DNA of 33,604 nt from Chrysiogenes arsenatis DSM 11915 (GTDB lineage Bacteria > Chrysiogenota > Chrysiogenetes > Chrysiogenales > Chrysiogenaceae). The position numbers and the translations under genes were made by a program. The stretch's first letter is position 1, and every line of letters starts with the position of its first letter. Where the stretch lies: positions 2,279-35,882 of the forward strand of contig NZ_AWNK01000014.1 of NCBI RefSeq assembly GCF_000469585.1. The letters run 5' to 3'. Positions 1 through 8,004 of this stretch are shown here, in pieces. The notes under the pieces were generated by a model. It did no database searches. It saw only the letters and a list, made by a program, of their open reading frames with translations, and was not told the origin of the DNA.

Positions 1-503
1 ACGATGGGGGCGATGGCGTCATAAAAGTAGAGGTGTTTGCCAAAAAGTGTTTCCAGCTCAGCGGCGAGAGCGGGTGATGCCAGCGGCCCCGGAGCGAGAA
101 TGGTTGGAGCGTTGGGAAGTGCGGCAAGGGTGCGAACTTCTTCGCGTTTGACGGTGATATTGGGGTGTGCCTCTATCTGCGCGGTAATGTCGTCCGCCAG
201 CGCGACACGATCGACGGCTAAGGCGCCGCCAGCCGGAACTTGATGGCGCAGTGCGGCGGCAAAAATGTGAGATCGACCCTGTTCCAGCTCCCATTTCAAA
301 ATGCCGGGCGCGCATTCCATGCCTGTTCCACGCAACGAATTCGAGCAGAGCAGTTCGCAGAACTTATCTGTTGTGTGCGCTTCGGTCTGGACGCTGGGGC
401 GCATTTCGTACAGGGTGACGGAGCAACCGGCGTGCGCGAGTGTGAGTGCGGCTTCGCTCCCTGCCAGCCCTGCGCCGACTACCGTAACGGCATAGCTTTT
501 CAA
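1..503 (-). CDS. trmFO: TrmFO, folate-dependent tRNA (uracil-54-C5)-methyltransferase (partial, C-terminus beyond window)
   Basis: This enzyme makes ribothymidine at U54 of the tRNA T-loop, using methylenetetrahydrofolate and FAD. About 167 codons are present and the rest lies left of the window. The N-terminus shows the FAD-binding Rossmann motif VVGAGLAGSEAA, followed by YEMRP and a CELLCSNSLRG stretch typical of the TrmFO/GidA family. The start is TTG at 503: it gives MKSYAVTVVGAG, the expected family N-terminus, and has GGAG seven bases upstream. No ATG lies in a usable position. The start overlaps the stop of the upstream TPR-HEPN gene by 4 nt, so translation is probably coupled. No frameshift is visible. 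GidA/MnmG is the main alternative, but the CSNSLRG region and the short N-terminus favour TrmFO. Confidence 0.9.
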   Translation of the reverse strand, partial: MKSYAVTVVGAGLAGSEAALTLAHAGCSVTLYEMRPSVQTEAHTTDKFCELLCSNSLRGTGMECAPGILKWELEQGRSHIFAAALRHQVPAGGALAVDRVALADDITAQIEAHPNITVKREEVRTLAALPNAPTILAPGPLASPALAAELETLFGKHLYFYDAIAPI

Positions 504-2068
504 AGTGATGCTCCAGCGTCGCTTTCGCGCAGTTCTTCAAGAAAGGTTGCCAATAAGCCCATCGTGCCATTGCCGCCGAGAACAATCAGGCGGCATTCGG
601 CGGAGGCTTCAGGGCGAAGGTTTTCGCCATGCGCCCAACAGTTGCGGTAGTTAATCGCCAGTTCATTCACCTTTTCGGGAAAGTCGCTATTAATAAGGGC
701 AAGTCCCGATTTAAATCGCTGTATAATGAATTTTCGGAAGGCTTCCATTGATCCCATGAGTTCATGTGGATTGCTTTCTTTCAATGCTTCGAGCACGTTG
801 GCCATCTGTCCGAGCGAAAGGTTGATTTTTCCGGTCATGAAATTTGCCATGATTTTGAATTTTTCGTACTTCGTATCGACATCACCATACTGTTCTTTAA
901 ACGGGTAAAATAGGTGTGCTTTCAATTCTTTTTCGAGGACAAAGCAGTATTGAATTCCGGTTAAGCCAGTCGAAAAGTTGGCTTTTTCATATTTGCTTTC
1001 AAGGTACAGTGCTTGCAAAAGGAGTTCACGGCTTTCGCTTGCCAGCCGATCCCAATAGATACCCACAATATCGCGTGCGCTCCCTTCGATTTCCTGAAGG
1101 ACTTGCGAATGGGTTTTGAAGTGCGGTAACAGGCGTTGCATTAAATCGTCAGCCAGATTATCCATTTCGTCTGGCGTTTGTGTCTGCGAGCCGATGCTGC
1201 GCAGCGCTTTTTGAAATTCTTTTTGCGAATTTTTTACGATCTTTCCTGCGCTTGTTACATCGTCACTTTGCACAAGATTAAATTCGCGCGCCATTTGCGC
1301 GGTGCGCCGTGAGAGTCTAAAAATCAGATTTTCTGCGATATCAACTTGTTGTTCGTAGCGTTGAATTTGCGCCATTGCTTCGTCTAAACCGCCTTGCATC
1401 CGTTGGCACCCTGCCAGATACCCCATGAGTTGGTGTGTGTGCACGGCATCTGGAGTTTGTTCGAGCGCTTGCTGCAGCAAGTCTTCTGCTTCTTGATAGT
1501 GGCTGGTTTCGATATAAATCAATGCCAGTTTTTGCTTGAGATCAAGGCTGGTTTCGCCATGCGCAATCGCTTGCAAGTAGTGCTCGATGGCACGGGTATC
1601 CTCTTCTATCATCATCAGACAGTTGCCAATGGCCTTATGAATTTGAGCCTGGATAGCGTCGTGGTTGATCGCAACTTGTTCGATACTTGTGCCATATCGT
1701 GCCAAAAGTGTAATTGCTGTTTGGTATTCGTTGATCGCTAATTCAAATTCATCAAGATTCAGGTAACAATCCCCAAGGAACATATGCAAAATGGGGGAAT
1801 TGGGGATGGCACGGAGTGCCCGGATCATATGGCGACGACATTCGTCAAAGCGCCCTTGCGCCAAGAGTATCGTCCCCATCCCCATCCATGAACGTATCCA
1901 GGAAGGATTGACGCGCGTTTCCTGCGAAAAATACTCTAACGCCACATCATACGATTTTTGCGCGTACGCTGCTTCGCCAAGGGCAAAATACGAAGAGCCT
2001 TGAGGTAAAGTATTCTTTGTCGCTAAAACAGTTGCGTCAGTTATTTTATTTGATAGGTGAGTATCCAT
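500..2068 (-). CDS. TPR-repeat protein with C-terminal HEPN-like (Swt1/RNase-type) domain
   Basis: A 522-residue protein of unknown function. Residues about 25-230 are tetratricopeptide repeats, seen as repeated A..Y..Al...P units such as YFALGEAAYAQKSYDVALEY. A helical linker and then a second all-helical domain (about 310-520) follow. That domain contains W-RLASESRELLLQA, an LTGIQYCFVLEKELKAHLF segment and, near the end, YRNCWAHG at 474-481. R475-N-x3-H480 fits the Rx4-6H motif of HEPN RNases, in which a polar residue follows Arg; this layout resembles Swt1-like HEPN domains. Many HEPN proteins are RNases in toxin-antitoxin or defence systems, but others only bind RNA. No signal peptide or membrane segment is seen. 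ATG at 2068 has GGAG nine bases upstream. The gene is divergent from secA and coupled to trmFO. The TPR call is firm; the HEPN call is inferred from one motif plus the fold pattern. Confidence 0.75.
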   Translation of the reverse strand: MDTHLSNKITDATVLATKNTLPQGSSYFALGEAAYAQKSYDVALEYFSQETRVNPSWIRSWMGMGTILLAQGRFDECRRHMIRALRAIPNSPILHMFLGDCYLNLDEFELAINEYQTAITLLARYGTSIEQVAINHDAIQAQIHKAIGNCLMMIEEDTRAIEHYLQAIAHGETSLDLKQKLALIYIETSHYQEAEDLLQQALEQTPDAVHTHQLMGYLAGCQRMQGGLDEAMAQIQRYEQQVDIAENLIFRLSRRTAQMAREFNLVQSDDVTSAGKIVKNSQKEFQKALRSIGSQTQTPDEMDNLADDLMQRLLPHFKTHSQVLQEIEGSARDIVGIYWDRLASESRELLLQALYLESKYEKANFSTGLTGIQYCFVLEKELKAHLFYPFKEQYGDVDTKYEKFKIMANFMTGKINLSLGQMANVLEALKESNPHELMGSMEAFRKFIIQRFKSGLALINSDFPEKVNELAINYRNCWAHGENLRPEASAECRLIVLGGNGTMGLLATFLEELRESDAGASL

Positions 2069-2158: not shown

Positions 2159-4678
2159 ATGCTAAAATATATCGCCAAGAAGATTTTGGGAACTAAAAAT
2201 GACCGTGAAATAAAACGAATTCAACCCATTGTTGCTCAAGTTGCGGCATTTGAACCAGCACTCCTGACTCTTTCAGATGCCGAACTGGCAGCCAAAACCG
2301 TTGAATTCCGTTCCCGCTATCAAAATGGCGAATCGCTCGATGCGCTCCTCCCTGAAGCCTTTGCGGTTGTCCGCGAAGCATCGCGCCGCGTTCTTGATAT
2401 GCGCCACTACGATGTGCAGATCATTGGCGGTATGGTACTCCACATGGGGCGGATATCGGAAATGAAAACTGGTGAAGGGAAAACACTGGTTGCGACGCTG
2501 GCTATTTACTTGAACGCCCTGAGTGGTAAAGGGGCGCATCTGGTAACTGTCAACGATTATCTGGCCAAGCGTGACGCGGAGTGGATGGGGCAGATTTACC
2601 GCTTTTTGGGGATGAGCGTTGGCATTATTGTCCATGGCTTGAGCGATGCCGAGCGCAAGGCGGCCTATGCTTGCGATATCACCTACGGCACAAATAATGA
2701 GCTTGGTTTTGACTATCTGCGTGACAATATGAAATTTGATATCCAGGACTACGTGCAACGTCCACTGCATTTTGCCATTGTCGATGAAGTTGACTCTATC
2801 TTGATTGACGAAGCGCGTACACCACTTATTATCAGTGGCCCGACCGATGATTCGACCGAATTATACTATGTTGTCGATCAGGTTGTCCGCAAGCTCACCA
2901 AAGAGGTTGATTTTACCGTCGACGAAAAAGCCCGCAACTCCGTGCTGACCGAAGACGGTGTCAAAAACGTTGAATCCCTGATGAAAATCGACAACCTCTA
3001 CGATATGGGGAACGTGGCTATCTTGCACCACGTAGGGCAATCACTGCGCGCCCACTGGAACTATCAGCGCGATGTTGATTACATGGTAGATGAACAGGGC
3101 AAAGTCGTCATCGTCGACGAATTTACTGGCCGAGTGCTGGAAGGGCGTCGCTATTCAGACGGTCTGCACCAAGCTATTGAAGCCAAAGAAAAAGTGAAAA
3201 TCGAACGCGAAAACCAGACACTTGCTACCATCACCTATCAGAATTTTTTCCGCCTGTACGAAAAAATCGCCGGGATGACTGGCACGGCCGATACCGAAGC
3301 CGCAGAATTCAAAAAGATTTACGACCTTGATGTTACCGTTATTCCAACCAACGTGCCCATGATTCGGAAGGATGCTTCGGATAAAGTATTTAAGACGAAA
3401 GAAGAAAAATTTGAAGCCGTGGTGGCGGAAATTAAAGAACACTACGAATCAGGCCAGCCGGTGTTAGTCGGCACCGTAGCAGTTGAAACCAGCGAGTACC
3501 TCTCAAACTTACTCAAAAAAGCCAAAATTCCACACAACGTGCTGAACGCCAAAAACCATGCCCGTGAAGCGGAAATTATCCTGAATGCTGGGCAAAAAGG
3601 GATGATCACCATTGCCACGAACATGGCCGGTCGTGGTACCGATATTAAGCTTGGCGAAGGGGTAAAAGAGCTTGGCGGCTTGCATATCATTGGTACGGAG
3701 CGTCACGAATCGCGCCGGATTGATAACCAGCTGCGTGGCCGTGCTGGTCGCCAGGGCGATCCCGGCAGCTCGCGCTTTTTCCTTTCGTTAGAAGACGACC
3801 TGATGCGCATCTTTGGTGGTGACCGCATTAAAACCATTATGGACAAGTTCGGCATGGAGCGCGGCGAACCAATTGAACACAACCTTGTTTCCAAAGCTAT
3901 CGAAAATTCACAGAAAAAAGTGGAAAACTACCACTTTGAAATGCGGAAACATCTTTTGGAATATGACGATGTCATGAATCAGCAACGCTTGATTATCTAC
4001 GCCTATCGTCGTGACATCCTCTCGGGTCACCATGTCGACGGAATGGTAGAAGAGCGGATTGACCAAATCCTGAATGACATCTACCAGACGCATATCCCAG
4101 ACGGGGCATTTTTTGCCGACATTGACCGCAAAGCTGTGAGCGAATCATTCACTTATTTCTTTAATCTGACACCTGATTTTGGCGTGTTTGCGGATAACGA
4201 AAAAACCATTGAAGTGCGTGAACGACTTCGTCAGCAGGTGATTGACTCGCTGAAAAGCAAAGAGGACGAAGCCGGAGTGGAGCGTTTTGCGGAACTCAAG
4301 CGTCACCTGCTCCTACACATCATTGACACAACGTGGAAAGATCACCTCCTTTCAATGGATCGCATGAAAGAAGGGATCGGGCTGCGTAGTTATGGACAGA
4401 AAAACCCGTTAACTGAATACAAGCGCGAAGCCTTTGAGTTATTTGACAAAATGATGCATCGCATTAAAGAAGAAGTTGTCCGCTACATGTTCCGCGTTGA
4501 ATTCCGTTATGATACGGAAGTTCCAAATGAGACGAACCCATCCGCTACGCGCCAGCAACGCCGCCAGGAAGAGCGACAAAAAGGGAAAGACTCAAAACGC
4601 AAAGGGGCAATGGATCCCAATCAGCCATGCTCTTGTGGAAGTGGTATAAAATACAAACTTTGCTGTGGTGCCAATTAG
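2159..4678 (+). CDS. secA: SecA preprotein translocase ATPase
   Basis: The motor ATPase that pushes unfolded preproteins through SecYEG at the inner membrane. At 839 residues it is a little shorter than E. coli SecA. Walker A is MKTGEGKT (102-109), the DEAD-box equivalent [11 protein letters not shown] starts at 209, and helicase motif VI is [13 protein letters not shown]. The preprotein cross-linking region and the helical scaffold ([20 protein letters not shown]) are present. The C-terminus is a zinc-binding SEC-C tail, [16 protein letters not shown], with Cys824, 826, 835 and 836, which binds SecB or ribosomes in other bacteria. The start at ATG 2159 follows an AGAGG sequence about ten bases upstream. 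An ArsR-type regulator follows after 33 nt and may be co-transcribed. The gene looks complete. Confidence 0.98.
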
Positions 4679-5899: not shown

Positions 5900-6556
5900 T
5901 TATTTTATCCAATTCCTGATAATATTCACCACGACAGGAGCAAAGGGAACTAGCTTGCTATCTTTTGGAGTAAGCAAATCAGTAATCACTGACCGCAATA
6001 GTTCATCGTCTTCCAATCCTTCTTCAGGGTTGACGCCGTTTATCCACAATAAATCCGAAGAAAGTCGTTTGCGCTTTTCAACCAATGCTTTGTTGTTTTG
6101 CTCTATATCACCAAGATTCAAAACTCGAATTGCTTCTATCGCTCTGGGTGTTAGCCCTTCAACACGCCCACTGATTTTGAATTTTAACTCATTTTCACAC
6201 TCTTCCATGAGAGGGGTAAGTGGCAAGGGCTGCCCGGCGTGGGCATTATCGCATCGTCCTTTATTATTGCAGCTTGCGACGATGTTCGTATGATCTAAGC
6301 TTCTATGTGGCGCAATCGCCCTTGCCTCAACATGCTCATTTTTGGTGTCAGCCTTTGTTCCCTCTATGCGGTCGCAGCAATAAGCACAGATATAAAATTG
6401 TTCTTTTGTATTGTGAAGACTCAAAGCATTTACTATATCCCAATGTTTCTGAATATAAAGTTCCTGAAACCATTGGTTTTCATCTTTACTTTTGGGCTTT
6501 TTCCTTACCCAATCACGAAAGCTTATGGGAGGTTCACCCTTATTGATTTTGCGCAT
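5900..6556 (-). CDS. ptuB: Septu-like HNH nuclease (PtuB / TIGR02646-type)
   Basis: A 218-residue HNH-type nuclease. The zinc and catalytic landmarks are CAYC (Cys57, Cys60), NEHVEAR (Glu74, His75), LDHTNIVASC (His89, Asn91, Cys96) and CDNAH (Cys102, His106). This order (CxxC, then EH, then H-x-N, then C) matches the HNH partner of Septu systems and of the Ec78-type retron effector pair. The start overlaps the 3' end of the upstream ATPase gene by 17 nt, which strongly suggests a two-gene module. In known Septu systems the pair blocks phage and the nuclease is the effector; that role is inferred here. Local base composition is AT-rich: hand-counting 6421-6480 gives 18 G/C of 60, against 37 of 60 in glmS at 9001-9060. 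No reverse transcriptase gene is adjacent, so it is not a retron. Confidence 0.82.
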   Translation of the reverse strand: MRKINKGEPPISFRDWVRKKPKSKDENQWFQELYIQKHWDIVNALSLHNTKEQFYICAYCCDRIEGTKADTKNEHVEARAIAPHRSLDHTNIVASCNNKGRCDNAHAGQPLPLTPLMEECENELKFKISGRVEGLTPRAIEAIRVLNLGDIEQNNKALVEKRKRLSSDLLWINGVNPEEGLEDDELLRSVITDLLTPKDSKLVPFAPVVVNIIRNWIK

Positions 6557-7907
6557 TTTTAATTTCCTGCTTGCGCAAAAGAATTTGGGCTTTCACCAGT
6601 TCCAGATTATTTGAAGGCAACTCATCTTTCAATGCGTTTAATTTATTTTTTGCCTCTTCGAGTTTTCCATTCTGGATAAGATCCAGTAAATCGCCGAGTT
6701 TTTTTGCCACCGTTTCGTTTCTGATATGCGTATCCATTACATCAAGCAATACCGTATTCGCATCCTGACCGTACTGCGAAGAAACCGTTACCAACTCGCC
6801 ATTTTCTAACGAATACACCATCACGTCTTTACCGTCACTAATCACCAACGGCGAATGTGTCGTCAGGATGAATTGGCAATTGGGGAACGTATCCGTCAAT
6901 CTTCTAATGACACTGCGCTGCCATGATGGATGCAGATGCATATCGACTTCGTCTACCAAAACAATTCCGTCTCCATGTAATGGATTTTCAAGTCCTGGAT
7001 TCATCATGGCTAAACGCCTCGCGATATCGCCCACCAACGCCATAAGAGATTTTTCGCCTTGTGATAGCTGTGACACATTGAGTGTTTGGCCATCCTTATC
7101 GATAGACATGTGCAAGCGCGGTTTACGACGAACACGCAAGTTACTAAAGCCCGGCATAAAATTGGCGATAGCAGTTCTGACCGCTGTGAGCTGACGATCA
7201 CGCGAAGAGGCCATAAAATACTGCAACTTATGCCAAATATCACTCTCTATGCTCACCGAAGACAGTAGATTGTCAAGAATGTCTTGAGGTAGACCTGATT
7301 CGTTTTCAAAATCCTCTCGCTCACGAAACCACTCGAAGAAGCGCCGAAAGTCTACGCCTTGGTTAAGCGAGTTATCATAGCCATCTAATTGCAAAAAACT
7401 GTGCTTGCTTTTAATTTTTAGTGGGATATCCAATACCACCCGCTCAACAGGGTAGAAAGCAATGAGAGGAAGACTCTGGTCTTTACGAGCGGTTAATCCA
7501 TTGCGGTAGTATTCCGCCAGATGAGTAGCCTCCTGCAAGGAGGAGGTAAGGCTGGCTTTTTTGCCCTTGGCCGTTTTCGCCAGCGTCCAGCAGTAGAGGT
7601 GTTCGCTTTCATCGGCATCAGGATTCCCGGACTGACCTTGTTCATCAAACACTTCGATATCAATCATAGCTGAAGCTTGGCCATTGAGTATAACTTCTTC
7701 AGGAATATGGCTGCCACTTCCTTTCTCACTACGCAAACGCGCAACAAACCAGCTTAAAATAGTTGCAAGTGAAGTCAAAACCGTTGTTTTTCCCGCTCCA
7801 TTATTGCCGATAAACACGGTTACGCTCCCCTTGCCCCTTGATGCAAGGTGAGCTTTAAGCTGCTCGAACCGACCTAAATTGGTGAGGCGAAAAGATATAA
7901 TTTCCAT
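6540..7907 (-). CDS. ptuA: Septu-like AAA/ABC-type ATPase (PtuA)
   Basis: A 455-residue SMC/ABC-like ATPase, the presumed sensor or regulator of the HNH nuclease that follows. Walker A is GNNGAGKT (34-41), the ABC signature is LSQGEKS (281-287), Walker B is VLVDEVDMHLHP (about 316-327) and the H-loop is TTHSP (349-353). A helical C-terminal tail (about 390-455) follows. This is the OLD/RecF-like layout of PtuA, with the short inserted region of a soluble ATPase rather than long SMC coils. I place the start at ATG 7907 (MEIISFRLTNLGRFEQL), because this is the family N-terminus and GAGAG lies about eight bases upstream; a longer open frame reaches 7985 but adds an unrelated 26 residues. The gap to the glmS stop is 97 nt, with no clear promoter or terminator. 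Generic ABC ATPase without a defence role is the alternative; the HNH partner makes Septu more likely. Confidence 0.85.
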   Translation of the reverse strand: MEIISFRLTNLGRFEQLKAHLASRGKGSVTVFIGNNGAGKTTVLTSLATILSWFVARLRSEKGSGSHIPEEVILNGQASAMIDIEVFDEQGQSGNPDADESEHLYCWTLAKTAKGKKASLTSSLQEATHLAEYYRNGLTARKDQSLPLIAFYPVERVVLDIPLKIKSKHSFLQLDGYDNSLNQGVDFRRFFEWFREREDFENESGLPQDILDNLLSSVSIESDIWHKLQYFMASSRDRQLTAVRTAIANFMPGFSNLRVRRKPRLHMSIDKDGQTLNVSQLSQGEKSLMALVGDIARRLAMMNPGLENPLHGDGIVLVDEVDMHLHPSWQRSVIRRLTDTFPNCQFILTTHSPLVISDGKDVMVYSLENGELVTVSSQYGQDANTVLLDVMDTHIRNETVAKKLGDLLDLIQNGKLEEAKNKLNALKDELPSNNLELVKAQILLRKQEIKNAQNQ

Positions 7908-8004
7908 GGCACAACTCTCACTTTGCGTTATGGCAACCGAAATAGAGTTTGCTAGCACATGCACGAAGGCAGAACTGCTCACCATTGATTGCGATGTTCA
8001 CCAC

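Follow-up and report, generated by a model that had tools for sequence, protein, structure and literature searches.

In the stretch of Chrysiogenes arsenatis DSM 11915 DNA analysed here (33,604 nucleotides; hereafter the window), a chromosomal gene encodes a TPR protein whose C-terminal domain probably represents an uncatalogued HEPN family, acting as a putative signal-controlled RNase output whose inputs have been swapped between lineages. The best reading is that of a sensor-gated HEPN RNase or RNA binder, belonging to a new HEPN family whose input domains can be exchanged. The gene is a genuine 522-aa open reading frame with an ATG start (500–2068, minus strand), and its two orthologues (L004:4603-6090 and L005:4566-6062) share 50–57% identity with the window protein and come from genomes of the same family, G001 and G002. 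The earlier note, made from the letters of this DNA, had described the N-terminal half as a TPR scaffold, and this was borne out: tandem TPR repeats span residues ~25–240 (1349–1996, minus strand; Pfam TPR_2 E 2.8e-22, five stretches), and AF2 modelled the region as TPR with high confidence (pLDDT of about 70–94 across most of it). A helical linker with conserved IVKxSQKEFQKALR and PHFKTH segments follows (residues 276–343; 1040–1243, minus strand), and leads into the HEPN-like domain at residues ~344–516 (521–1039, minus strand). Pairwise identity among the three genomes was 62–74% in the C-terminal domain, 48–55% in the TPRs and 15–35% in the linker. Among 60 relatives from 29 genera searched for the C-terminal domain, it was present only in the window genome and the two genomes of the same family, a pattern that takes in three genera of a small phylum.

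The 2013 analysis of the HEPN superfamily describes an Rx4-6H motif in which the arginine is followed by a polar residue, and a second motif, Ex3[KR] (PMC3710099), and the C-terminal domain carries both. Residues 474–481 read YRNCWAHG, with Arg475, Asn476 and His480 at the positions previously claimed for them (R475-N-C-W-A-H480; 629–646, minus strand), the asparagine being one of the polar residues (N, D or H) expected after the arginine; the second hallmark is E379-x3-K383 (920–934, minus strand). YRNCWAHGE is invariant across the three family proteins. The earlier note had also proposed a survey of motif conservation, and in a 15-row alignment, made up of the three TPR proteins, 11 proteins with a response-regulator receiver (REC) domain and one longer protein (both described below), R475, N476, H480, E379, A353 and R445 were invariant, and position 383 was K in 14 rows and R in one. 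On its own the motif is weak evidence, as R[NDH]x3H arose in 8.4% of shuffles of the 522-aa protein, against 0.005% for R[NDH]xWAH; we accept it as more than chance because it is kept in all 15 homologues. This conservation also bears on the alternative of a HEPN-type domain that serves as a regulatory adaptor, binding RNA or just forming dimers without cutting. Some HEPN families are indeed non-catalytic RNA binders (PMC3710099), and such a role would suit a chromosomal gene beside secA with no visible antitoxin, where a freely active RNase would need some other form of control. However, non-catalytic HEPN families usually lose Rx4-6H, whereas here the R, N and H and the Ex3[KR] motif are all invariant, and we consider a non-cutting adaptor unlikely, if well worth keeping in mind.

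The C-terminal domain apparently belongs to a wider, uncatalogued domain family. None of the Pfam, NCBIfam or PADLOC models covered it above noise, and a profile of the three domains, searched against 40 genomes from a different phylum, returned four proteins of 430–453 aa (E 2.5e-4 to 1.7e-3), each with a response-regulator receiver domain at the N-terminus (Pfam Response_reg, with E about 1e-20) and a C-terminal domain that ends LQHYRNPYIHPEIS and is likewise without a Pfam model. Weak hits of a first profile search were read and rejected, namely chemoreceptors, a GGDEF/EAL-type protein, an antisense frame of an aldehyde dehydrogenase and a Cas1-like protein. A joint-profile search added seven REC proteins, bringing these to 11, and one longer protein of 815 aa in G266 (L114 5321-7768, plus strand), which has the same C-terminal domain with the motif FRNRAIHEG, behind a long N-terminal region without an assigned domain. 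The REC proteins (L082, L083, L084, L085, L086-L090, L094 and L095) carry RNP[Y/F]IHPE and come from several phyla: G178 and G315 stand as their own phylum among the genomes examined, and both, together with G193 and G330, lie outside the 40-genome list of G062's phylum. Like the window protein, these regulators (e.g. in G062, G178, G193 and G393) retain Y-x-F-x2-E-x-E-x-[K/R] and RN-x3-H; unlike it, they have a receiver in place of the TPRs and a longer insert in the domain, and belong to other phyla.

Profile–profile comparison of the TPR and REC families (hhalign) gave 95% probability and a score of 56, whereas 60 column shuffles never exceeded 25 and the reversed profile reached 13. The first halves of the domains alone scored 52.6, with a shuffle null that peaked at 17.5; the match between the families lies in this first half and is therefore independent of the motif. 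The motif-bearing second halves, compared alone, did not rise above the shuffle null, and their best local match was exactly YRNxxxHxE, with only the motif aligning. Reciprocal HMM searches returned modest scores, with E values between 5e-5 and 8e-4, and unrelated open reading frames came close, one of them at 7.5e-4. A fusion of REC and HEPN domains was found neither in the one superfamily survey searched (PMC3710099) nor by a search for papers. As for the surroundings of the REC genes, which vary, a kinase-like gene adjoins the one in G416, an RNase J-like gene lies beside those in G392 and G393, and rph-like (RNase PH) genes lie upstream of those in G413, G349 and G062, all three of the same phylum; all of these were recognised by eye, and the proximity of the RNase J-like and rph-like genes (loci L082, L105, L106, L107 and L109) may be chance.

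Structural evidence points in the same direction. An AF2 model of the domain, built from three sequences, was of low confidence (pLDDT 50, pTM 0.42), and on this model the top four rows returned by the VIA tool were all the HEPN endoribonuclease RnlA (Z 8.8, 8.8, 8.6 and 7.8), ahead by 1.5–2.5 Z of the next row, a designed protein at Z 6.3; by the tool's own note, Z values under about 13 are weak for helical bundles. Foldseek, run on the same low-confidence model, likewise gave RnlA the highest probability (0.44, 64 columns, rmsd 2.0). The aligned ranges (model 5–195, RnlA 202–357) would put the RnlA motif R318-x4-H323 at the position of R475-H480. When the 15-row profile was aligned to 22 Swt1-HEPN domains, 47 columns around the motif matched with a score of 29, where shuffles reached 19 at most. 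A structure search with the full-length AF2 model returned TPR matches only, and a BFVD search gave no match. The structural and Swt1-profile results thus agree with a HEPN fold for the modelled domain but do not prove it, and we regard a HEPN-type domain as likely and its catalytic activity as predicted. The alternative, that the domain is all-helical, unrelated to HEPN and active in signalling, with YRNxxxH in a structural or ligand-binding role, draws on the low confidence of the fold, the lack of a match to a known family, the weak homology of the second half and the resemblance of helical bundles to many folds. Against it, both HEPN hallmarks co-occur and are invariant and RnlA leads the structural list, and we judge a domain unrelated to HEPN to be rather improbable.

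A HEPN-type domain being the preferred assignment, its relation to known HEPN systems can be described by likeness and difference. With the Abi2/Swt1 clade of the superfamily (PF18731, HEPN_Swt1) it shares Rx4H with N after R (RNxWAH in both) and the helix–motif–helix context; in contrast, the domain partners are other, and the TPR-family profile alone aligned over just 13 columns at the motif. PF18731 had no match in G000, G001 or G002, and was not among the hits when the three domains were run through hmmscan with E values of up to 10, so that, without a profile match, we reject membership of this family. Of the earlier claim of an RNase-type HEPN motif on a Swt1-like fold, the motif thus stands, with both hallmarks retained throughout the alignment and RnlA as the nearest structure on a low-confidence model, while assignment to the catalogued Swt1-HEPN family does not. 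RnlA (RNase LS; PDB 6y2q, 7aex) is the nearest structural neighbour and has its own Rx4H (R318, H323) near the C-terminus, but identity is 8% on a weak model, and RnlA has NTD and NRD domains where the window protein has TPRs. A gene for an RnlB-type antitoxin was not found beside the TPR-HEPN gene, whose neighbours are secA and either trmFO or a DUF523 gene. HEPN proteins of the LA2681 type (PF18733, HEPN_LA2681) resemble the window protein in overall build, with an N-terminal helical or TPR region, a C-terminal HEPN domain and a length of about 480–530 aa, but their motif context is IRNALEH and their domain sequence differs; the absence of a PF18733 match in G000, G001 and G002 led us to reject membership here as well.

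A role in defence or as a toxin is the rule among HEPN RNases (PMC3710099), and whether this gene, too, supplies a defence system with a toxin or an abortive-infection RNase has to be weighed. At a distance of 3.8 kb there is a Septu (PtuAB) system, and there is a match to the abortive-infection family PHROG 2158 that overlaps the relevant region but is too weak for use (E 0.014). Set against this, the gene keeps its place beside secA in each of the three family genomes (divergent neighbour; 2159–4678, plus strand, in the window), no antitoxin gene accompanies it, and the REC relatives sit among housekeeping genes. Searches of plasmids, phages and viral contigs yielded no relatives, and this speaks against a mobile toxin; the two scans of viral contigs, like two of genome contigs that found none, are a weak negative, as they required exact short peptides and possibly left out near relatives. 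The TPR-HEPN gene is chromosomal and vertically inherited, and we hold a role as toxin or defence RNase to be distinctly improbable. Two further hits were set aside: PADLOC HEC-01A (E 0.03), which overlaps the relevant region and is too weak for use, and a phage tblastn match to a Streptococcus capsid protein (E 7e-3), judged to be chance. The Septu-type pair itself occupies 5900–7985 on the minus strand and consists of a PtuB-like HNH protein (PADLOC PDLC00344, E 5.7e-87) and a PtuA-like ATPase (PDLC00271, E 1.8e-167), whose open reading frames overlap by 17 nt.

Downstream, the 5′ part of trmFO (1–503, minus strand; Pfam GIDA E 5.9e-27) adjoins the TPR-HEPN gene, and the sequence reading confirms two details recorded earlier: the stop codon TGA (500–502) overlaps the trmFO start TTG (501–503) by 4 nt as TTGA (500–503, minus strand), and the trmFO ribosome-binding site, GGAG (511–514, minus strand), lies within the TPR-HEPN gene, 7 nt before the TTG. 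Immediately ahead of the first position of the window, a single undetermined base (N; L006 2278) divides trmFO between two frames, which is a matter of assembly and not a frameshift. Adjacency to trmFO is found only in this genome of the three. In G002, trmFO lies ~28 kb from the TPR-HEPN gene, and in G001 on another contig; in both, a DUF523 (2-thiour_desulf) gene, absent from the window genome, takes its place downstream (L004 3663-4709, L005 3658-4569), overlapping the TPR-HEPN gene by GTGA in G001 and lying just downstream of it in G002. Since the partner differs in this way, trmFO here and a DUF523-type gene in the sister genomes, the overlap is the usual translational coupling with the next gene, whatever that happens to be, and the pairing is a local accident. 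The earlier suggestion of a tRNA-surveillance RNase functionally paired with TrmFO, for which the TTGA overlap and internal ribosome site of the window genome speak, is largely refuted by this neighbourhood, with trmFO distant in both sisters and none seen beside the REC-HEPN genes whose neighbourhoods were read, and has become scarcely credible; the neutral operon arrangement that the earlier note had offered in its place matches the data.

For the sensor-gated HEPN protein that we favour, the following mechanism can be proposed. The TPR half would take in the signal by binding a partner, either protein or peptide, and through it control the output. R475 and H480, probably brought together from both subunits of a dimer, would make up a site that cleaves RNA independently of metal, supported by E379 and K383; cleavage through R475 and H480 is what we infer by analogy with HEPN enzymology. 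In the REC members, the same output domain would be placed under the control of phosphorylation. Because the same domain follows a phosphorylatable REC in other phyla, the family would appear to be a signal-controlled RNase module whose input has been swapped. Taken as a statement about the whole family, namely that it comprises signal-gated RNases with one catalytic domain and with either a receiver (in several phyla) or TPRs (in the family to which C. arsenatis belongs) as input, this is a tentative proposal, with a substantial chance of being right yet somewhat short of probable.

HEPN RNases are known chiefly from toxins, CRISPR effectors and abortive infection. The candidate family described here departs from that pattern in that it is chromosomal and has the architecture of a regulator. 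If the proposal is true, it would constitute a bacterial signalling output that acts on RNA directly and not via transcription, and if the REC-linked members cut RNA upon phosphorylation, two-component systems would gain a direct RNA-degrading output.
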